Part shown: in pieces, positions 2 through 10,941 of the stretch | Position numbering within the stretch: the first letter of the stretch is position 1 | How the letters are laid out: each line of letters opens with the position of its first letter | NCBI GenBank assembly: GCA_023251285.1 | Contig: JAHEZB010000026.1 | Location: 1-10,941, forward strand | Direction: 5' to 3' | From: Chitinophagaceae bacterium | GTDB lineage: Bacteria; Bacteroidota; Bacteroidia; Chitinophagales; Chitinophagaceae | Length of the DNA stretch: 10,941 nt | The notes under the pieces: model-generated | Seen by the model: the letters and a program-made list of their open reading frames with translations, nothing else | What the model was told of the DNA's origin: nothing | The model's database searches: none | Translations under genes and position numbers: made by a program

Positions 2-3000
2 CCACTTGCCAACATTGAAAAGTGCTTCAATGATTTTAAAAGCGCCGGCCTTCTTGACTATAGCGTATCTGAACAGGATAATGATGCACCCATTGCCATA
101 GTATCTGAAGAGAATTTTTCAAGAGCAGCAGATATGAGCATTTCCTGGCAATCTGCAGTAGCAGATATATTTATTACATTACCTGCTCTTACCAGTAGGG
201 AAATTATTGTTTATGTAATCAATCACAATATTTTTAATGCACAGATCGAATCATTATTTAATGGAATTTCCTCAGTGGTGAATCGCGCTAATGATCTTTT
301 TATCCAAACATTAGGCAGTTATCCGGATCATACTCCACATTTTGGGTTATTTATTGCATTTATAAAGATCTATTTACATGCACAGGATGATTTGAACCAA
401 TATACCCAACGGCATCTTGATTTTTATTATAAACAGGTATTACAGTTATTAAATAAAGCTCCTGAGCCCGATTCCGCGCACGTACTATTTGAACTGCAGA
501 AGCCGGTTGATGAAAGCCTGCTTTTAAAAAGCACTTTATTCAAAGGAGGTAAAGACATTGCCGGCAAAGAAATCAGTTATACGCTGACTGAAGATATTGT
601 GATTAATAAAGCGGCTGTATCTAAAATCCATTCCACACAAATCGTGCATGGAACAAAAGATTTATTGAAAGCTTCACCAGTGGCTAACTCCGATGATGGC
701 CAGGGTGCAAAAATTACTTCCCCTGATAAAAGCTGGTTTACTTATGGGGATGTAAAAAAAATTAAAAATGCGCAGGCAGGCTTTGCCATTGCTTCTAATA
801 TTTTGTATCTCAATGAAGGAAGCAGGACCATCTCTGTTACAGTAAATTTTGTCTCACCTGTTCCTGCACTTTTATTTCTAAACGTCAATTGTTTTACTGC
901 ACAATTTACCGGAGCAAAAAAATGGGAAAGTATTTCTTCCCTTTCTGTAAACACAAATATTACCGGTTCCCAACTTAAATTTACGATACATCTTTCGCCC
1001 GATGATCCGGCTATTGTTCCCTATATAGAAAAAATTCATAGTCAAAATATGAATTTAGGACTACCTGTGCTTGAAATTTTTCTCGACCAGGATATAGACA
1101 ACGGTATTCCTTACACATTAATTTGTAATAAAGTAATAAAGAGCATCGATATTTCGGTAAATGTAAGCGGTATAAAAAACCTGGTATTGAGTAATGATAA
1201 TGGAACGATAGATGCATCAAAACCCTTTAAACCTTTTGGTGATTTTCCCGATACCGGTTCCGGCTTTTATATCGGCAGTAAAGAAATTTTTCAAAAGCCA
1301 TTGACTCAGCTGGATATCATCATAAATTGGAAAAACGCTCCGCCTTCACTCAACAGTGCAATCAATTATTTGTGGCAAAATAATTTTGATAGCAAGATTT
1401 ATACATCTAACATAAGCTCATCGTCAATCAGTATATCGTTTTCAGGAAGCAATGGTGCATTTGTGCCTACAGCTATTGATTTTACGCCAAATGAAAAAAT
1501 TACGGCCGATACACTTGCCGGCTTTTTGCGTATCAAAATGAATGATGCCTCTTATTCTCTGGATCAACATTTAAAAGACGTTAGCACAGCATTGAGTAAT
1601 GGCACCGCCCTTACCTGGGATTCCAATTCCAGTAGCTATAAAGTGACCATAGCACCTACTCCTGCACCCAAAGAAGTAGTTCTAAATAATTTATCAATTA
1701 CTTATACTGCTGCTACAAGTCTTTCGTTTGATGCAAGTTCACCCGTTAATAATAATTTGTTCTATCATTTATCTCCGTTTGGGTTTGCCTGTGTCAGCAA
1801 TTCACTTATTGATACATCCTCCGATATAGAAAAAACGGAAAATATAACACTGATCCAGGATATCCTAAATGAAGGTGAATTGTTTTTGGGCCTGGAAAAT
1901 ATTACCGGCGGGATGGTTGTTACCATCTTATTCGAGGTTGCTGATGGCAGCTCCAATCCTTTGCTTGATGTGGAAGATCTTGGCTGGTACTATCTGTCGG
2001 TCAACAACAACTGGAAACTTTTTAAAAATGCAAATATCATTGATAATACAAATAATTTTACCCAATCAGGCGTAGTAACGATTACGTTTCCTCCCGATAT
2101 TGTTTCAGGAAATACGTTGCTTGAAAGTGGTTTTGCCTGGATCAAAATTACCGCGCATCCATTTGCCGATGCAGTTTGTAAAATGATACTGATACAGGCC
2201 CAAGCGGCACTTGTACAATTGGTGCAGGACGAAGCCAAAGGAATTGAATTCAGGCAATTACTTCCTGCCAATAGCATTTCTAAATTAGTAGTGAGTGATG
2301 GTGATATCAAAAAAATTCAACAACCTTTTGACTCATTTGATGGGCGCGTACGCGAAAGCGACGATCAGTTTTATGTACGGGTAAGTGAAAGGTTACGGCA
2401 CAAGCAACGGGGCATTACCATTTGGGATTATGAGCACATCATTCTTGAAGAGTTCCAAAAGATATATAAAGTGAAATGTATCAATCATGCCGGCTTTTAT
2501 ACAAAACAGGGAGTTGATGTTTTTTGTGAAAATTTTCCGGGTCATGTCTCCGTGATCACTATTCCGGATGAAAACAATAATGCAAATATCAATCCGTTGC
2601 GGCCCTACACGCCAATTGGTTTGTTGAATAATATCACTACCTATCTGCAGAAAATTATCTCACCCTTTGTAAAGCTTCATGTAAAAAACCCGCAGTTTGA
2701 AGAAATACAACTTGATTTTAATGTGAAATTTAATAAGAATGTGGATGAAAATTTTTACACCAATCAATTAAACACTGAGATTGAGCAGTTCCTTACTCCT
2801 TGGGCATTTGACAATAAAAAAGAAATTTCTTTTGGTGGAATAATTTACAAAAGCGCTTTGATAAATTTTGTAGAAGAAAGGCCTTATGTGGATTATGTTA
2901 CCTGTTTTAAAATGTACCAGTTTATTAACCGAACCGATCCGCAGAAAGATGTAGAAGAAGCGGAGGGTTCTACTGCACGCTCTATCCTCGTTTCCTACTT

Positions 3001-3058
3001 TGATGAAGAAAACAATATCAAACATAAAATTAAACCCGTTGAAAATTGCACTTGCTGA
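2..3058 (+). CDS. CIS baseplate wedge protein, baseplate J/gp47-like (Afp11-like), 5' partial
   Basis: Probable structural subunit of the baseplate wedge of a contractile injection system, assembled in the cytoplasm. The frame of the ATG at 134 is open back to base 2 (44 more codons, beginning PLANIEKCFNDF), while the other two forward frames in 1-133 contain stops; the ATG at 134 is therefore probably internal and the gene starts outside the window. Numbered from base 2, the visible 1018 residues show a helical N-terminal part with PHFGLF (from 112) and RHLDFYYK (137-144), then a long Ser/Asn/Thr-rich, beta-prone middle (about 180-740), then the motif FYVRVSERLRHKQRGITIWDYE region (790-811) and a C-terminal segment (PFVKLHVKNP from 888) typical of the gp47/gpJ-like baseplate family. 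The C-terminus ends in SILVSYFDEENNIKHKI and a final CTC. No signal peptide or membrane segment is visible. Assignment rests on recalled family motifs and gene order; the exact Afp11 equivalence is inference. Confidence 0.85.
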   Translation, partial: PLANIEKCFNDFKSAGLLDYSVSEQDNDAPIAIVSEENFSRAADMSISWQSAVADIFITLPALTSREIIVYVINHNIFNAQIESLFNGISSVVNRANDLFIQTLGSYPDHTPHFGLFIAFIKIYLHAQDDLNQYTQRHLDFYYKQVLQLLNKAPEPDSAHVLFELQKPVDESLLLKSTLFKGGKDIAGKEISYTLTEDIVINKAAVSKIHSTQIVHGTKDLLKASPVANSDDGQGAKITSPDKSWFTYGDVKKIKNAQAGFAIASNILYLNEGSRTISVTVNFVSPVPALLFLNVNCFTAQFTGAKKWESISSLSVNTNITGSQLKFTIHLSPDDPAIVPYIEKIHSQNMNLGLPVLEIFLDQDIDNGIPYTLICNKVIKSIDISVNVSGIKNLVLSNDNGTIDASKPFKPFGDFPDTGSGFYIGSKEIFQKPLTQLDIIINWKNAPPSLNSAINYLWQNNFDSKIYTSNISSSSISISFSGSNGAFVPTAIDFTPNEKITADTLAGFLRIKMNDASYSLDQHLKDVSTALSNGTALTWDSNSSSYKVTIAPTPAPKEVVLNNLSITYTAATSLSFDASSPVNNNLFYHLSPFGFACVSNSLIDTSSDIEKTENITLIQDILNEGELFLGLENITGGMVVTILFEVADGSSNPLLDVEDLGWYYLSVNNNWKLFKNANIIDNTNNFTQSGVVTITFPPDIVSGNTLLESGFAWIKITAHPFADAVCKMILIQAQAALVQLVQDEAKGIEFRQLLPANSISKLVVSDGDIKKIQQPFDSFDGRVRESDDQFYVRVSERLRHKQRGITIWDYEHIILEEFQKIYKVKCINHAGFYTKQGVDVFCENFPGHVSVITIPDENNNANINPLRPYTPIGLLNNITTYLQKIISPFVKLHVKNPQFEEIQLDFNVKFNKNVDENFYTNQLNTEIEQFLTPWAFDNKKEISFGGIIYKSALINFVEERPYVDYVTCFKMYQFINRTDPQKDVEEAEGSTARSILVSYFDEENNIKHKIKPVENCTC

Positions 3059-3060
3059 TG
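3046..3060 (+). promoter_or_regulatory. Stop-start overlap TGATG coupling the two baseplate genes
   Basis: The stop TGA (3056-3058) of the J-like gene shares its last base with the ATG (3058-3060) of the next gene. No Shine-Dalgarno sequence precedes it, so reinitiation by ribosomes finishing the upstream gene is the likely route. An in-frame TTG at 3046 is an alternative but weaker start. Coupling is inferred from the overlap alone. Confidence 0.7.
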
Positions 3061-6000
3061 GATGATTCAACTACGATATCAAGAGACAGGAAGCTTCCTT
3101 TATCGCAGGATTATGATGCTTTGCGCACGGAAGGATTAAATTACATCGAGGAACTGTCACATTTGATATGGACTGATTACAATGAACATGATCCGGGAAT
3201 TACGACACTCGAAGCACTTTGCTATGCGATTACAGAACTCGGCTACAGAAGCGGCTTTGATGTAAAGGATTTGCTTACAGATAAAAACGGCGCGATCGTT
3301 GGCGGACAAGTTTTTTTTACTGCTAAAGAAATACTTACCAATAACCCCCTTACAATTGATGATTACCGGAAATTACTGATTGATCTTGATGGAGTACACA
3401 ATGCATGGCTTTTTGCAGATGACTCTCAACAGGATGCAAAAGGTAATTTAATTCCCATAAATGAAGTGCCCATCTACGCTAATTGCAAGGCAGATAATTT
3501 ACAGTATGATCCAACAAATGTTACTTTGTTTCTTTCAGGCCTCTACCGGGTACTCTTGGATCTTGATGATGATAATGTTTATGGCGATTTAAATAACGGG
3601 GAAGTAGTGATTGAAAATCCGGCATTGGCTGGCAGATTTTCCAAAGGTGATTTTTGGTTTTCTATTGAATTGCCGCCGTGGAAATCTGCAGATTTTATTT
3701 TTGCTGAAGCGGCTACTGACAGAAATAATATCAGCTCGGCCGTTATTAGCGGAGAGCCAAATGAATGGGTTTGTGATTTGACCCTGACAAATAATTCGTC
3801 TATTCAGTTTAAGGTGGCTTTATCTAAAAAACCTTCTACTAATACGGTTGAGACCGGTGATGTGCAATCGATGTTCTCACAGGATAATTTTCAATTTATC
3901 GCAGATTTCTTTTTGTTTTATACCAACAAAATTTCAAAAGCAAAACAAATTGTAAAAACAGCAATAAAGAGTTTGCAAGAGCATCGCAACGTTTGTGAAG
4001 ATTTTGAATCGGTAACTACTGTGGATGATGAAGAAGTTGCTTTTTGTTTTGACGTTGATGTAAAACCTTCAGCTGATATTGAAAAGGTGGAAGCAGAAAT
4101 ATTTTATGCGATAGAGAATTATCTAAACCCCTCAGTTGATTTTTATTCTCTCAAAGAATTGCTGGATAAAAAAGTTCCGGTCGATGAAATATTTGAAGGA
4201 GTGGTATTGCAACACGGCTTTATTAATACTACTCAACTGGAAAATACCCAATTGCGCAGTGTAATTTATACATCTGATATTATAAACCTGCTCATGGATA
4301 TCGATGGAGTGATTGCGATCCGCAATTTTGTAATGACTAAATATGGCGCAGACGGTAAACCGGTTCCGGGTTTTCTTGGTTTGAAGTGGTGCATGAATAT
4401 TACCGCTTTCAATAAACCGGTTTTGAGCGAAGACAAATCAAAAATATTGATGTTTAAGAATCAATTTCCTTTTCTTGCAAATTACCAGGAAGTTTATGAC
4501 ACGATTTCTTTATTGCATGCAGAACGTTCGCGCGCTAAATTAAATGGCCTTGAAGATGACTTGCCGGTACCTGTTGGCAAAAAGAGAAATACGGATATTT
4601 ATTGGCCTGCTCAGTATGATTATCCTCAAACTTATGGAATCGGAGAAGCTGGCCTGCCAGACAATGCATCACCATTACGCATTGCCCAGCAAAGACAGTT
4701 AAAAGCGTATTTAATGTTTTATGAACAGGTGCTTGCTGATTTTTTAAGCCAGCTTACAAACGCTTATGAATTATTTTCTACAGATAATCTCGTCCATACT
4801 TACTATGCGCAATTTTTAAAAGATATAAAAGATATAGATGCAGTATATGCAAAATCCGGCTTAACTATAAAATTGGAAGACGCAATTACAAATGCTGATT
4901 CCACCATTCAGCCTAAAAACAACTGGCAATATCTTTATGAACCCAAAGATGTATTTGAAGACAGAAGGGGACGTTTTTTAGATCACTTGCTGGCAAGGTT
5001 TGCAGAGTCATTTAACGATTATGCACTAATGATGTACACGGTGAATTATACAGAAATGACAGAAGAAAAAATTGATTTTGCAGAAATAACCAACGCCAAA
5101 ATACGAACACTTCAAAATTACCCTGATATCAGCAGCAACCGTGGAAAAGCTTACGATTATTTTCCGCAGGACAATAATTTTAATATTGATACATCAAAAT
5201 TATGGGACACTGACAATGTTTCAGGGCTGGAGAAACGCATAGGTTTTCTTACCGGAATAAAGGATATTACACGCCGTTTTTTAAGCTGTATAAAAAATAT
5301 CGATGTCATCTGTAGTGAAAAGGAAGTAGTAGTTAATGGGGAAACAAAATTGCAATGTTTTCACAGCTTCACCGTGATTTCCTTAACCGGTGTAAAATTT
5401 GTTTCTAAAGAATATGAGAAAAAATCAGATGCAGAAGAAGCTGTTCAAAAAGTAATTCAGCTTGGTTCAGATTTCAGCAATTATTCAATTAATAACACCG
5501 ATCCGGTCGTAATTAATTTGTCTGACCTGCTGACAAATGTAACAGACACCGGCACTATTTTTCACAACGAAGCCGATGCACAAAATGCCGTTAATGAAAT
5601 TGCCAATGAATTTAAAAAAGATTGTAACGATCCGGCAGGCTTGCATTTAATAGAACATATATTGCTACGACCCCGTGAAAAAATTTTACTTCCGGATAAA
5701 ATGTTTGACCTGATGCAGGTCTGCCTTCATAATTGTGATTGTCCATGCGAACAGGATCCTTATAGTTTCCGTGCCTCAGTGATATTGCCTTACTGGCCTG
5801 AATATTTCAATAACATGGCTTTTCGTGAATATTTTGAAAATAAAATTCGTGAAGAAGCGCCTGCAAACGTAATGCTGAAAATTTGCTGGCTAAATAATGA
5901 TTTGTTAACTGACTTTGAAATGCGTTACCGGGTTTGGGTTAATGCGCTGGCCAATTATACATTCGATAAAAAAGCAAATCTTAATTCTTTCAGAGATGCT

Positions 6001-6141
6001 AACGACCGGATGATTGAAATTCTTACCCAATTACACAGTGAATATCCACAAGCAACTTTGCACAATTGCATTGAAAGTAAGGAAGGCAGCAATACAGTCG
6101 TGCTTGGGAAAACAGTTTTAGGAACCTTTAAAAATCAATGA
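3058..6141 (+). CDS. Second CIS baseplate wedge protein (Afp12-like), 1027 aa
   Basis: Probable partner of the upstream J-like protein in the baseplate wedge. A longer version could begin at TTG 3046, but the ATG at 3058 overlaps the previous stop as TGATG and gives a natural N-terminus (MDDSTTISRDRKLPL), so I chose it. Residues 38-64 carry WTDYNEHDPGIT followed by LEALCYAITELGYR, a hallmark of this large CIS baseplate family near the N-terminus. Near the C-terminus come two related alpha/beta segments (about 767-810 and 817-856), then LHLIEHILLRPR (862-873), a Cys cluster C889/C893/C895/C897, DPYSFRASVILPYWPEYF (from 900) and ICWLNN (from 942). The segment from LIEHILLRPR to the YRVWVNALA region is the part I recognise best. 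No secretion signal is seen. By analogy with afp/PVC particles, Afp11 and Afp12 form the wedge heteromer; the specific pairing here is inferred from adjacency and the overlapping junction. Confidence 0.82.
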   Translation: MDDSTTISRDRKLPLSQDYDALRTEGLNYIEELSHLIWTDYNEHDPGITTLEALCYAITELGYRSGFDVKDLLTDKNGAIVGGQVFFTAKEILTNNPLTIDDYRKLLIDLDGVHNAWLFADDSQQDAKGNLIPINEVPIYANCKADNLQYDPTNVTLFLSGLYRVLLDLDDDNVYGDLNNGEVVIENPALAGRFSKGDFWFSIELPPWKSADFIFAEAATDRNNISSAVISGEPNEWVCDLTLTNNSSIQFKVALSKKPSTNTVETGDVQSMFSQDNFQFIADFFLFYTNKISKAKQIVKTAIKSLQEHRNVCEDFESVTTVDDEEVAFCFDVDVKPSADIEKVEAEIFYAIENYLNPSVDFYSLKELLDKKVPVDEIFEGVVLQHGFINTTQLENTQLRSVIYTSDIINLLMDIDGVIAIRNFVMTKYGADGKPVPGFLGLKWCMNITAFNKPVLSEDKSKILMFKNQFPFLANYQEVYDTISLLHAERSRAKLNGLEDDLPVPVGKKRNTDIYWPAQYDYPQTYGIGEAGLPDNASPLRIAQQRQLKAYLMFYEQVLADFLSQLTNAYELFSTDNLVHTYYAQFLKDIKDIDAVYAKSGLTIKLEDAITNADSTIQPKNNWQYLYEPKDVFEDRRGRFLDHLLARFAESFNDYALMMYTVNYTEMTEEKIDFAEITNAKIRTLQNYPDISSNRGKAYDYFPQDNNFNIDTSKLWDTDNVSGLEKRIGFLTGIKDITRRFLSCIKNIDVICSEKEVVVNGETKLQCFHSFTVISLTGVKFVSKEYEKKSDAEEAVQKVIQLGSDFSNYSINNTDPVVINLSDLLTNVTDTGTIFHNEADAQNAVNEIANEFKKDCNDPAGLHLIEHILLRPREKILLPDKMFDLMQVCLHNCDCPCEQDPYSFRASVILPYWPEYFNNMAFREYFENKIREEAPANVMLKICWLNNDLLTDFEMRYRVWVNALANYTFDKKANLNSFRDANDRMIEILTQLHSEYPQATLHNCIESKEGSNTVVLGKTVLGTFKNQ
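5356..5625 (+). repeat. Degenerate internal protein repeat (two YegP/DUF1508-like segments) within the second baseplate gene
   Basis: Two consecutive segments of the encoded protein follow the same plan: a short beta portion, an aromatic residue, then an Ala-rich helix. The first reads KSDAEEAVQKVIQLG (from residue 789) and the second NEADAQNAVNEIANEF (from residue 837). The match is at the protein level only; the DNA is not obviously repeated. The first copy, with SLTGVKFVSKEYEKKSDAEE, recalls the small YegP-like fold. The second copy is less complete. The assignment to that fold is inference. Confidence 0.45.
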
Positions 6142-6146
6142 CCATG
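6138..6146 (+). promoter_or_regulatory. ATGA overlap coupling the second baseplate gene and the 1294-aa gene
   Basis: The ATG at 6138-6140 overlaps the stop TGA at 6139-6141, the standard four-base coupling arrangement. A second ATG in the same frame at 6144 (protein begins MTMSIAN) could also serve and would differ by only two residues. There is no Shine-Dalgarno sequence upstream (ACCTTTAAAAATCA). Confidence 0.7.
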
Positions 6147-9100
6147 AGTATTGCAAATACTTTTCCGTTCTTTGAAGCAGACCAGGTGCTTACTAATAAT
6201 CACCTGAATTCCCTGTTCAATTATTTGGATCAGCAGGAAAGACTGTCACGCTGCAAGCTTATTGGCAGCGGAATTGTATGCGGCCTTGAAATATCGCATA
6301 CGAATGATACTATTAATATAACCAAAGGTTGCGGTGTTACCTCCCAGGGTTATATTATTTTGCTGTGCGATCATACCGGTGCTAATGGATATAAATATTA
6401 CATGCCATTTACCAAACCGGCTTTTCCTAATGACCTTCAGATTATTTCACAATGCGGAAATCCTGATCTTACCAATATTCCTTTTTACACCTCTTCAAAT
6501 ACCGGCACTTCTGCTGCCGCTGATGACATTCAATTACTGCTGACACAGGAGGATTTTAATGGTCTGACCGATAATAGCAAAGCCATTCTGTTATCGCAAG
6601 GTGGTGATTTAAGCAAATATGCTATCGTTCTTTTTTTGGATGTAACTGAGTTAAAATTAAAAAATTGCGATACCAATGATTGCAACGATAAGGGAAGCCA
6701 GATGGATTTTGAAGTAAAAGCATTATTGGTCAATAAAAATCTGCTTATTACCGGTAATAATAATGGAAACGGGAAAGTAACTTTCTCCCCGGTTGAATTG
6801 AAGCGCTACAATGTACCGGTAAACAATTTAAACTCTTCCGATGATGTATTGAATGCTTTTGTTTCACTGCTTACCAGCGATTCCATTCTTGATACTTTGG
6901 CAAATGATCTGAATTACTGTCTCACTACTTATAATCCTTTATTGAATGGTACCAGTTATTCATTTGGGACGGGAGCTGATTTCAAAAAGATCCTTGATTT
7001 TATTCGCCTTTCATTTCCAATCTACCTGCAATACGTTTATGACTTCATTTATGATCTGGTAAAAGCAGTGGAGGAATTCAGATACAAAGCCTATTCCATC
7101 ACAAGCGAGTGTTGTGGTGATGAAATGAAATTTCCGTTTCATCTTACGTTAGGTGAAGCTACCACCGCCACAGGTACAGCAACAACTGCTTACCGGCAAT
7201 ATTTTATTTATTCGCCTTTATTTGATTCTCAAAGCACAGGTGCAAGCGAATTACGGAGCTTGCTGATGCGCATGATCTTAATGCACCAGGGATATTTATT
7301 GTTACAAAAGTCCATTCAAAAAGGATTACCCCAGGATATCAGGATCACTCCAAGCGCGTATGGCCGCAATTTTATTTCTGACCGATGCATCCCCTATTAT
7401 TATAAAACGGTTTCCGATAACACGGATCTTATCACAGAAAATCTATATTATTATTGGAGTTATGAAAAAACTGAACGCGGAAATGCACAACGAAATTTAA
7501 CTTACGATCCCACACCTTATAGCAATGACAATGCAATTGTGAATCCGCTTAATTATGATATTGAATGGTATAATTTTTTTAGAATTGAAGGACATATTGG
7601 TCAGACTATTACCACTGCATTGCCGGATTTAATTTCTAAAAAACAAAAATGGAATCTTCCCTTTGATGTGGTTGCCCTGAGCGCTGATTATATTGGTGCC
7701 TTACTGCAGGTCAAGGATCCAATCTGCATAATCCAGGATCTGGAATCTGATTACCGCATACTCATCGCTGAATTTATTTGCAAACTGCATGATGGTTTTT
7801 GTACGGCTGCAAGGCAAAAGTTTACTCCACCGGTTCAAATTTTTACTACTGGAATATTTAATACAAATGCTGATACAACTGCTAAGAGCAAAGCATCTTT
7901 AAATAAAAAAACATCTGCAAAATCAACAGCTGCAGCCGATGTAATATCTACAATGGTTAAACCGGTAAACATTGTGACAGACCATCCATTTATTTCCGGC
8001 CTTGTTAATGAATTCCAGGCCACGGCTTCCTATACAAAAGGTGATACTTTATCAAGATTATGCGCACCTGCCGATGGAACAGTGGGAAGTTATTACATCA
8101 GTAGTGTAAAAGCGAACCAGGGAAAGTTTGTAAATCCTGATCCCAATAATGCGCTTAACAACGCTCTTTTTCAATTTGTTGACAGTGTAGAAAGTATGTT
8201 GCAGGTTTTGATGATACAAGATCTGCCGGCCATTGATCCTACTGGTTTTAAAGGGTTATATGCCATTTTTGAAAAAGCTACAAATGCGTTAAAAGTGCTT
8301 TTACTGGGCTTGATCAATGATTTGCAAAATAAAGACACGCAGGATTCCGAAATAGATTATTTAACCGATTTGCTTTTAAATAATGCACAAGCCATTTTGC
8401 ACACCTGCATTACAGAGAAACTGGAAGCCTTAAAAAATGAGTACCTGCGCAGAGTGGCTCAATACCGGTTGGCCAAAAATTTTAATTATTACTTTAAAAA
8501 ACATGGAGGCATCGAACATAAAGCCGGGGTGCCAAGAGCGGGGACATTTATCCTGGTTTATCATGAAGAAAGAAGAAACCGTTTTGTAGATGTTAACTCC
8601 TTATTTATTAACAAGGAACTAAGTGATGTGTTACTGACCAATTTCCGTGAATTGTTGCAACCTGATGTAGATCTTGATACACAGGAAGCAAAAACAAAGT
8701 TGCTGGCAGTAACTACCCTATATAAAGATCCATCCTTGTATTTACAATTTAAAAATGTAATGCAGGAATATCTTGACAATTGCAATGATCTTCCACCTGA
8801 TAAAAAAAATCAGATTACAACCATTATCAATCAACCCCCCGGAAATCCAACTTATCAGCTAAGCGACGGGATGATCATTGCCGATTTTTATGTCCCTTAT
8901 ATGTGCTGTAGTGATTGTTTGCCTATTGCCTACATTTTGCCCGAACCGGCTGCTACTGCTCCATTGCAGGTTTCACAAAGCGATCCTGTTTGCGACGGGG
9001 AAGGAAAAAATTTCACCGTAACTCTTACCGTAACAGGCGGAACACCACCTTATTCTTATACTGTAAATAATGCTGCTGCTTCAAATAATCAAATAACATT

Positions 9101-10022
9101 AGCGAGCGGAAGCCCTGATACAGATGTAAGTATTAAAGACAAGTCAAATCAGATCATTACTACAACCATCAAGAGTCATCAATGCCCGCAGCCTTGCAAT
9201 TTGCCTTGCAACGGTTTGGCAGAAAATTGCAAATACATTTTGTGGCTTCCTAAACCTAAAGATGCGTTGAAGGACGCTATCAAACATACCACCCGGAAAG
9301 CCTTGTTGACACTTACTGATGAAAAAGGCGCCGATACTCAGATCGATCTTACTGCCGTTTTTCAGAGCATTATTGATAAAGCGAAAATCACAGAAAAAAC
9401 TTTTGATGCAATTCTTGCAAAGTTGGTTGATGCAATAAATTCGGAAGTAAAAGGAAAAGCTCCTCACTTTTTGGGTGATGATAAACCGATGTTTACTTAT
9501 GATGTAAATACGCCCACTAAATTCCAAAACCTTACACTGGATATTGAGAGATTCAGCTGCCATAATCTAAAACTTGAAATCGAAGCTTCTATTGCTTTCA
9601 CCACACAGAACCAGTTTAAATTCGATGTTGTGGCAACCTATGACAACAATGGGGTGTTGATTCAACTGAAAAGCGAGCAACAAAATTTTGAATATACCGT
9701 GCCGAAATTCGATTGTAGTTCAATTGATAAGTGTGCAGGAACTGAAAACAAAGTGTGTAAGGATAAAGTACAGATAAAAGAAATTAATGCAGTGCGGGCT
9801 GCAGCCGGCAATCTTTCCTTTACTTTTAAAACAGCTCCGGCAGATCCTATGTTTGATACGTATTTTTGGTATTTCCATTTCGGCAATCCGTTATTTTCAA
9901 CCAATTCAACGCCTGTTATTTCAGTACAAACACTTACTCCCTTCTTTGTGAGAGTAATTGGCATCAATTCTAAGACTGGCTGTTATGCTATTTTAGAGCA
10001 AACATTAAATCTGGCACAATAA
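6138..10022 (+). CDS. Conserved CIS-locus protein of unknown function, 1294 aa, with SprB/Ig-like region; occupies the tail-fibre slot
   Basis: Function not established. The start ATG overlaps the upstream stop as ATGA; a second in-frame ATG lies at 6144. The N-terminus has FPFFEADQVLTNNHLN (9-24), then LDQQERLSRCKLIGSGIVCG (30-49), which I recall as a recurrent opening in Bacteroidota CIS loci. Residues 324-340 include ECCGDEMKFPFHLTLG. A Lys/Ser/Thr/Ala-rich linker (about 575-600) separates the N-terminal half from the rest. Around 880-935 is IADFYVPYMCCSDCLPIAYI (C923, C924, C927), followed by an Ig/SprB-like segment (about 943-1010, with GGTPPYSYTV at 967-976), a second Cys cluster (C1016, C1020, C1024, C1031) and a beta-rich C-terminus with a PKD-like FWYFHFGNP and a VRVIGINSKTGC pattern. 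No signal peptide or transmembrane segment is evident, as expected for a particle component assembled in the cytosol. Its place between the Afp12-like and tape-measure genes equals that of afp13 (fibre), so a receptor-binding or peripheral baseplate role is possible; it does not show the repeats of a trimeric phage fibre. Expression is probably coupled to the neighbouring genes. Confidence 0.72.
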   Translation: MTMSIANTFPFFEADQVLTNNHLNSLFNYLDQQERLSRCKLIGSGIVCGLEISHTNDTINITKGCGVTSQGYIILLCDHTGANGYKYYMPFTKPAFPNDLQIISQCGNPDLTNIPFYTSSNTGTSAAADDIQLLLTQEDFNGLTDNSKAILLSQGGDLSKYAIVLFLDVTELKLKNCDTNDCNDKGSQMDFEVKALLVNKNLLITGNNNGNGKVTFSPVELKRYNVPVNNLNSSDDVLNAFVSLLTSDSILDTLANDLNYCLTTYNPLLNGTSYSFGTGADFKKILDFIRLSFPIYLQYVYDFIYDLVKAVEEFRYKAYSITSECCGDEMKFPFHLTLGEATTATGTATTAYRQYFIYSPLFDSQSTGASELRSLLMRMILMHQGYLLLQKSIQKGLPQDIRITPSAYGRNFISDRCIPYYYKTVSDNTDLITENLYYYWSYEKTERGNAQRNLTYDPTPYSNDNAIVNPLNYDIEWYNFFRIEGHIGQTITTALPDLISKKQKWNLPFDVVALSADYIGALLQVKDPICIIQDLESDYRILIAEFICKLHDGFCTAARQKFTPPVQIFTTGIFNTNADTTAKSKASLNKKTSAKSTAAADVISTMVKPVNIVTDHPFISGLVNEFQATASYTKGDTLSRLCAPADGTVGSYYISSVKANQGKFVNPDPNNALNNALFQFVDSVESMLQVLMIQDLPAIDPTGFKGLYAIFEKATNALKVLLLGLINDLQNKDTQDSEIDYLTDLLLNNAQAILHTCITEKLEALKNEYLRRVAQYRLAKNFNYYFKKHGGIEHKAGVPRAGTFILVYHEERRNRFVDVNSLFINKELSDVLLTNFRELLQPDVDLDTQEAKTKLLAVTTLYKDPSLYLQFKNVMQEYLDNCNDLPPDKKNQITTIINQPPGNPTYQLSDGMIIADFYVPYMCCSDCLPIAYILPEPAATAPLQVSQSDPVCDGEGKNFTVTLTVTGGTPPYSYTVNNAAASNNQITLASGSPDTDVSIKDKSNQIITTTIKSHQCPQPCNLPCNGLAENCKYILWLPKPKDALKDAIKHTTRKALLTLTDEKGADTQIDLTAVFQSIIDKAKITEKTFDAILAKLVDAINSEVKGKAPHFLGDDKPMFTYDVNTPTKFQNLTLDIERFSCHNLKLEIEASIAFTTQNQFKFDVVATYDNNGVLIQLKSEQQNFEYTVPKFDCSSIDKCAGTENKVCKDKVQIKEINAVRAAAGNLSFTFKTAPADPMFDTYFWYFHFGNPLFSTNSTPVISVQTLTPFFVRVIGINSKTGCYAILEQTLNLAQ
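8964..9167 (+). other. SprB/Ig-like beta-sandwich segment in the 1294-aa protein
   Basis: Residues about 943-1010 read like the Bacteroidota SprB-repeat/PKD type of Ig module: C952, then FTVTLTVTGGTPPYSYTV (959-976), a short Asn/Ala-rich loop, and ITLASGSPDTDVSIKDKSNQ. The GGTPPYSY turn is the recognisable element. Such modules are usually found in surface and adhesion proteins, often in tandem; here I see a single copy, flanked by Cys-rich patches. Confidence 0.5.
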
Positions 10023-10024
10023 AA

Positions 10025-10941
10025 ATGCAGTGTGATTCACATATCATTCAACAGCAAAATTTCGAAATACAATTTGAAGATTTTTCAGATGGCATTGGTA
10101 TTCAGAATGAGATTAAAGATCTGTTTTATGAAAAAATAATACCTGCTATGGAAGATCTTTTTGACGAAATTGTTGAAAAAAAATATACCATTTCCCTTGA
10201 AATGCTGGAAATTGATTGCGGATTACTGAACAGCAAATATTGGAAAGAAGAATTGGTGGAAGAATCGTTGGGCCATTTGAGACAACAACTGCTAATGTCT
10301 CCAAAAAAAGAAATACAAAATTCTCAGATAACGCACACTGATGCTGAATCTGCAGATTTATTTTCTACTTTTTTATTTTTTCTTAAAAATGGGTATTTTT
10401 TATGGAACAGCCGTTTCAATTCATTGAAAGATTTGGAAAAGTTGCTTTCTGAAAATTTAAACAACAAGTCAAAATTTTCTGAAAAAATAAAAGCATTGTT
10501 CAAACAAAATCCCGCTACAATAGAAAGATTCCTTTATAGCTTTTCTGAACAATTTGCTCTAATGCTTTTGGAACAATTGGCAGAAAATAAACAGGAAGAA
10601 CTGGAGAAAATTAATTTGTATTTGAATAAAGGGAAATTAACTAATGCTCAAAAACATATTGCTTATTCTTTATTATTTAGAATGTTTTCTGAGAATGTGG
10701 TTGAAGCCAAAGAATTTTATCCGGAATTCGCGGCAGCTATTGCCAGCCCGAAAAAAGAAAAACAATTGAAAAAAGGAAGTAATTCAGAAGAAAAAAACAT
10801 GGAGAAAGAATCTATATATGTACAAAATGCAGGCCTCGTATTGTTGCACCCATTCTTACCCGAATTATTTGGGAAGATCGGCCTGTGGGTTGATAAACAA
10901 TGGAAAGATACTTCTTCCCAACATATTGCTGTACAGGTTCT
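10025..10941 (+). CDS. Contractile injection system tape-measure protein (Afp14-like), 3' partial
   Basis: Probable length-determining protein of the CIS tube and sheath. Translation from ATG 10025 stays open for 305 codons plus two bases to the window edge, so the C-terminus is missing. The N-terminal region (about 13-66: FEIQFEDFSD, then NEIKDLFYEKIIPAMEDLFD and ending LEIDCG) matches the conserved opening of the CIS tape-measure family (Pfam CIS_TMP, from memory). A second part has FLFFLKNGYFLWNSRF (about 115-130), a helix-rich stretch, a Lys/Glu/Ser-rich linker (about 242-263), and the very characteristic NAGLVLLHPFLPELF (268-282). The gene begins two bases after the preceding stop, with an A-rich lead (AATAAAA) and no Shine-Dalgarno sequence, as is common in Bacteroidota. 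I expect an AAA+ ATPase (Afp15-like) and a tube terminator (Afp16-like) downstream, but they lie outside the window. Confidence 0.88.
   Translation, partial: MQCDSHIIQQQNFEIQFEDFSDGIGIQNEIKDLFYEKIIPAMEDLFDEIVEKKYTISLEMLEIDCGLLNSKYWKEELVEESLGHLRQQLLMSPKKEIQNSQITHTDAESADLFSTFLFFLKNGYFLWNSRFNSLKDLEKLLSENLNNKSKFSEKIKALFKQNPATIERFLYSFSEQFALMLLEQLAENKQEELEKINLYLNKGKLTNAQKHIAYSLLFRMFSENVVEAKEFYPEFAAAIASPKKEKQLKKGSNSEEKNMEKESIYVQNAGLVLLHPFLPELFGKIGLWVDKQWKDTSSQHIAVQV

Follow-up and report, generated by a model that had tools for sequence, protein, structure and literature searches.

What a contractile injection system (CIS) attacks is determined by its tail fibres. According to PMC12923769, most extracellular CIS (eCIS) operons had so far lacked an identified fibre gene. 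The locus analysed here raises the question which protein takes this part in a Chitinophagaceae bacterium of the Bacteroidota. It lies on a stretch of 10,941 nucleotides (JAHEZB010000026.1; hereafter the window), which makes up the entire contig C245. The genome assembly is incomplete, with 3.2 Mb in 630 contigs and a completeness of 72%. An open reading frame (ORF) at 6138..10022 on the + strand encodes a protein of 1,294 residues, for which an initial annotation made from the sequence alone had considered a fibre role. We conclude, with a probability of about 0.9, that this protein is the tail fibre of an eCIS of the AlgoCIS type, with a swappable tip on a constant anchor. The conclusion rests on the present analysis, namely on homology, the fold of the anchor, the position in the locus, a conserved docking partner and the exchange of tips.

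Homology to Alg19 and Cis19

In phmmer searches the protein matched Alg19 of AlgoCIS from Algoriphagus machipongonensis (9wt0_a, PDB 9wt0; PMC13314943, PMC8894135) with an E-value of 1.5e-45 and Cis19 (All3314; 7b5h_AA), the crown protein of the thylakoid-anchored CIS (tCIS) of Anabaena PCC 7120 (PDB 7b5h; PMC8894136), with 6e-44; a profile search gave 1.8e-110 (374 bits) and 9.7e-104 (351 bits), respectively. The phmmer homology to Alg19 follows the anchor (residues 5-535 and 756-941), whose bulky shoulder, neck and middle region has the Cis19 fold according to structure and sequence comparison. The likeness to AlgoCIS includes homologous Alg11 and Alg12 partners and an immunoglobulin (Ig)-rich C-terminus in both fibres, which differ in length (1,294 residues against 1,443 in Alg19). 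Pfam and NCBIfam provided no anchor model for the protein.

The gene can be assigned to the eBAP4 class, whose defining feature in PMC12923769 is the N-terminal ~200 residues encoded by the tCIS crown gene. In the corresponding region (6138..6737, +), which contains the FPFFEADQVLTNNHLN block, residues 2-78 are aligned with 4-84 of All3314 (i-Evalue 1.4e-15), where the envelope spans 3-182. PMC12923769 further describes bulky shafts, flexible chains that bear Ig, lectin and PKD modules, and a high degree of domain swapping between fibres. The window fibre resembles members of the class in its tCIS-crown-type N-terminal region, its C-terminal Ig/PKD modules and the presence of both an Afp11 and an Afp12 homologue in the locus. 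As further marks of the class, the fibre ends in attachment modules (a SprB repeat and a PKD-like terminal domain), and Pfam detected no Tail_P2_I between sheath and ATPase, where the larger ORFs were scanned both on the three contigs of this genome and in Pinibacter soli; most genes upstream of the sheath were outside these scans.

By position, between genes 12 and 14, the protein could also be an Afp13/Pvc13-type fibre that has diverged beyond recognition. Pfam reported no adenovirus-shaft or other shaft family at E-values up to 1, in line with the absence of Afp13-type repeats seen in the initial annotation, and no Afp13-type chain was among the PDB sequence matches. The anchor matches Cis19 and Alg19 in both fold and sequence, and the fold match brings this explanation close to refutation; we consider it the least probable of all. 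The different solution from Afp13 that the initial annotation had considered possible is found as an Alg19/Cis19-type fibre, although it is not an undescribed one: since PMC12923769 describes this kind of fibre and its swapping, and PMC12210884 lists Alg19 as a fibre family of its own in metagenomes, both are already known in general.

The anchor and its junction with the tip

The homologue set comprised the 120 listed proteins, the window's own included, out of 502 found. The conserved N-terminal block proposed earlier is real: residues 1-60 are covered at least by half in 115 of the 119 other listed homologues, at 50-98% identity. Conservation continues to residue 935, apart from a variable linker at ~541-620, so that we regard residues 1-935 (6138..8942, +) as the anchor, equivalent to shoulder, neck and middle of Alg19. 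Segment 541-620 is the least conserved anchor part in each of 13 tabulated relatives and includes a stretch (residues 567-615; 7836..7982, +) with a predicted local distance difference test score (pLDDT) under 50. A flexible linker had been predicted between anchor and tip; a low-confidence, variable stretch does exist, but it lies inside the anchor. Near the end of the anchor stands a CCSDC motif (residues 923-927; 8904..8918, +), of which C923, C924 and C927 are identical in 37 of 37 aligned sequences.

Tips were compared in 116 proteins after a length filter had dropped P0073, P0085, P0106 and P0107. Whereas single linkage first placed all tips other than those of class A in one class of 92, stricter clustering yielded classes of 49, 28, 24 and 11 and four singletons. 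Class A comprises 24 proteins including the window's own, in which the window tip is present over its whole length. For the 92 other-tip proteins, BLAST similarity to the window fibre stops within residues 934-969 (77 proteins), within 982-1019 (14) or at 1173 (one). These sequences place the junction between residue 935 and about residue 970, a little downstream of the CCSDC motif. A Pfam scan of eight of the other-tip proteins reported PKD domains in three (P0018, P0043, P0113) and no family in five. The tip of Alg19 itself is likely different from that of the window, since the class A profile (A3), which includes the window tip, matches 9wt0 over positions 3-940 of its 1,276 only. The separate comparison of N- and C-terminal segments agrees with the suspected design of an anchor plus a tip.

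Exchange of tips on the anchor tree

A quick tree of the 116 anchor rows, calculated with the linker left out, carried warnings about three rows of odd make-up and about 12 long end branches, of which P0100 and P0102 were joined. On this tree, the distinction of class A from the rest requires six changes, all forced by starred branches, versus a mean of 22 for shuffled labels; the tip label is therefore clustered, yet far from a single origin. A more careful tree under a mixture model, restricted to 43 of the 116 rows chosen by hand to omit short tips and near-copies, requires five changes (bootstrap range 5-6; shuffled mean 13.6), and none of 200 bootstrap trees can do with one. For the four tip classes the count is 11 changes versus a shuffled mean of 22.3 (lowest of 200: 18). 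Change counts of this kind cannot separate gain from loss.

Some pairs are clear when compared by anchor identity and by BLAST of the tips at E 1e-3. The anchors of P0033 and P0056 are 77% identical and their tips have no match; the same holds for P0016 and the window fibre at 65% anchor identity. Conversely, P0016 and P0103 share tips of 64% identity on anchors of 47% identity. These alignments and trees show the tip as an exchangeable cassette on a conserved anchor, and some Ig-like tip modules could still have a distant common origin.

The class A tip

The tip of the window fibre (residues 936-1294; 8943..10019, +) was modelled from residue 929 onwards with a pLDDT of 89.2. It begins with a SprB repeat (residues 948-980; 8979..9077, +; PF13573, E 1.2e-6, 28.5 bits at a cut-off of 28) and ends with a PKD-like Ig-fold domain (residues 1209-1293; 9762..10016, +), in agreement with the SprB/Ig-like and PKD-like features noted initially. 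In between, the secondary structure of the model comprises strands and a long helix (about residues 1023-1197; 9204..9728, +); comparison of this part gave no specific match, and its fold was not placed. Ten tip cysteines are identical in all 24 class A sequences and possibly form disulfides after release or a metal site.

We propose tentatively, at somewhat less than even odds, a more specific model that combines two claims: that the stretch from 935 to ~970 after CCSDC...AYIL is a recurrent exchange point, at which one anchor found across many Bacteroidota has traded at least four tip classes between lineages, and that the class A tip, with its SprB repeat, middle part, PKD-like domain and ten invariant cysteines, is a receptor-binding device not described before. 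SprB is absent from the main text of PMC12923769, and neither an SprB-bearing tip class nor a count of tip exchanges on an anchor tree was found in the open-licence PubMed Central literature searched.

Locus position and docking partner

The fibre ORF overlaps the preceding gene by four bases, and its stop lies two bases 5' of the next; as placed initially, it follows two wedges, in the fibre position. The first, an Alg11/Cis11-like baseplate wedge (2..3058, +) whose 5' end is off the contig, matches All3317 (7b5h_AH) at E 7e-134 and Alg11 (7aeb_G) at E 4.1e-125. The second, an Alg12/Cis12-like wedge (3046..6141, +), matches All3315 (7b5h_AD) at E 1.8e-134 and Alg12 (7aeb_A) at E 6.7e-116. Matches to the Pvc11, Afp11, Pvc12 and Afp12 chains are much weaker (E 9.4e-40, 2.1e-31, 2.4e-23 and 2e-21). 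Residues 834-1027 of the Alg12-like protein (5545..6126, +) align to Alg12 704-932 (i-Evalue 4.9e-16); the protein keeps the C-terminal region that in AlgoCIS ends in the fibre-holding loop (PMC13314943). Despite E-values below 1e-100 to solved structures, the Alg12-like wedge reaches no Pfam cut-off, and its Pinibacter soli counterpart has no Pfam family at E 0.01. Downstream follows a CIS_TMP tape-measure gene (10025..10939, +; PF19268, E 1.4e-51), which is cut by the contig end and continues on contig C436.

The initial annotation had allowed for a cage component. A purely structural role, in the spike cage or elsewhere at the periphery of the baseplate, would agree with the peripheral location implied by homology, all the more as Alg19 may also steady the pre-firing state (PMC13314943). 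The cage, however, belongs to Alg11, and the Alg11-like neighbour aligns through the cage-forming residues (7aeb_G 109-992). No Alg11 chain, with its cage domains III/IV, was among the matches of the fibre, and a purely structural part would hardly be expected to exchange its C-terminus. We consider such a role very unlikely.

The rest of the locus is spread over two further contigs. Contig C494 breaks off in the Alg11-like gene, its last residues corresponding to 13-152 of the Pinibacter soli protein, and the window resumes at 164; the window's CIS_TMP runs to residue 290 of the Pinibacter protein, and C436 begins at 303. Because these gaps are small and the Pinibacter gene order agrees, we infer that C494, the window and C436 are adjacent, their ends having no overlap. 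C494 carries the sheath end, two tube proteins, a 55-residue DUF5908 protein, which by place and size would be the expected small plug, CIS_tube, spike, PAAR and gp25. C436 carries the CIS_TMP end, three eCIS_core (DUF4157) genes and an AAA ATPase. The eCIS_core genes (786, 406 and 363 aa) are consecutive (L046, 1629-6499, minus strand), the first also having an OmpA domain, and fit an extracellular system with cargo. In the cultured relative Pinibacter soli (strain MAH-24), which has the same fibre at 68% identity, the genes between sheath and ATPase are arranged alike, but eCIS_core genes are lacking between CIS_TMP and ATPase. A separate fibre gene, which the initial annotation had named as an argument against a fibre role, was not seen from sheath to ATPase, genes beyond having been scanned only in part.

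These data also bear on a reading as a crown protein, in which the tips would hold the machine on the producer's membrane or serve assembly, as parts of the Anabaena tCIS do, and would not bind targets. Cis19, which forms the crown in Anabaena, scores almost as high as Alg19 (351 versus 374 bits). Anchoring in Anabaena is, however, attributed to Cis13 and an extra Cis12 domain and not to Cis19 (PMC8894136). A candidate for this anchoring extension, a stretch of ~470 residues that separates the second matched block from the third in All3315 (620 to 1094, versus 748 to 793 here), is missing from the window's Alg12 homologue. Every sizeable gene in hand from sheath to ATPase is accounted for, which leaves none for a Cis13-like fibre, and nothing here hints at thylakoid-type anchoring. 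Finally, tip exchange suits a choice of targets better than self-anchoring. A crown role is thus improbable, albeit less so than the other two alternatives.

Distribution

As a scan of the genome collection yielded only three loci, an order-wide search was used. Of the 298 genomes in this sample, 151, among them that of the window, have a match, many of them only near the SprB repeat (residues ~900-1040). At least 36 genomes besides G000, chosen by eye for a listed match inside residues 1-935, match the anchor. CIS_TMP was matched in 35 of these 36. In 33 it shares a contig with the listed fibre match and lies no more than 3 kb away, in 32 on the same strand; the exceptions are G166 (another contig), G124 (none found) and G197 (~13 kb off, other strand), and for the strand also G192 (close, other strand).

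Probable mechanism and weighing of the evidence

In AlgoCIS, each fibre consists of three Alg19 chains; its shoulder binds the loop at the C-terminus of Alg12 and spans two wedges, and an Alg19 knock-out was rarely seen attached to cells (PMC13314943). Given these facts and the retained C-terminal region of the Alg12-like wedge, we read the window fibre as probably trimeric, target-binding and of the AlgoCIS type. By this analogy, three chains would form one fibre and six fibres would occupy the baseplate vertices, the N-terminal shoulder docking on the C-terminal loop of the upstream-encoded wedge and spanning two wedges. The long middle part, helical and mixed in structure, would point downwards, and the tip, with its SprB repeat, unplaced part and PKD-like domain, would contact the target surface. 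Following the AlgoCIS model, target contact would orient the particle and tilt the fibres outwards, exposing the cage before firing.

Several observations weigh against an AlgoCIS-type fibre with an exchangeable tip. The anchor model is middling (mean pLDDT 67), most of residues 1-46 being under 50, the genes preceding the sheath are missing from this genome, and CIS_TMP was not matched in G124, one of the 36 genomes checked. In AlgoCIS, binding of the fibre did not by itself lead to firing (PMC13314943), and target binding by Cis19, a crown, is only suggested by its authors (PMC8894136). The junction is not sharp, given the 14 and one of 92 matches that run on to 982-1019 and 1173, so that some shared Ig-like start of tips is possible. 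Nor is tip exchange constant, since the window's own clade keeps its tip, 13 tabulated class A rows being 39-89% identical over its three segments.

Other observations in the two genomes

Contig C27, first suspected as part of the CIS for its Baseplate_J match, was rejected: with a phage capsid (PF25209), sheath and hub it is read as a prophage. This contractile-tailed prophage-like stretch (L045, 1-16854) is separate from the CIS. Upstream of the Pinibacter CIS (L048, 1533-11942) lie genes for an OmpA/PD40 protein, a PorP/SprF protein and a 2,315-aa IgGFc-binding/PKD/CHU_C protein in the style of type IX secretion. 'Pinibacter' did not occur in the open-licence PubMed Central papers searched.

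Implications

The case supplies a narrow boundary between constant anchor and variable tip in an AlgoCIS-type fibre. With this boundary and with pairs of similar anchors bearing different tips, it becomes testable which part sets the target. Annotation could name a family that Pfam and NCBIfam leave without an anchor model. If the proposed exchange of tips is true, the target of such a CIS would change in one step, while the firing machine stays unchanged.
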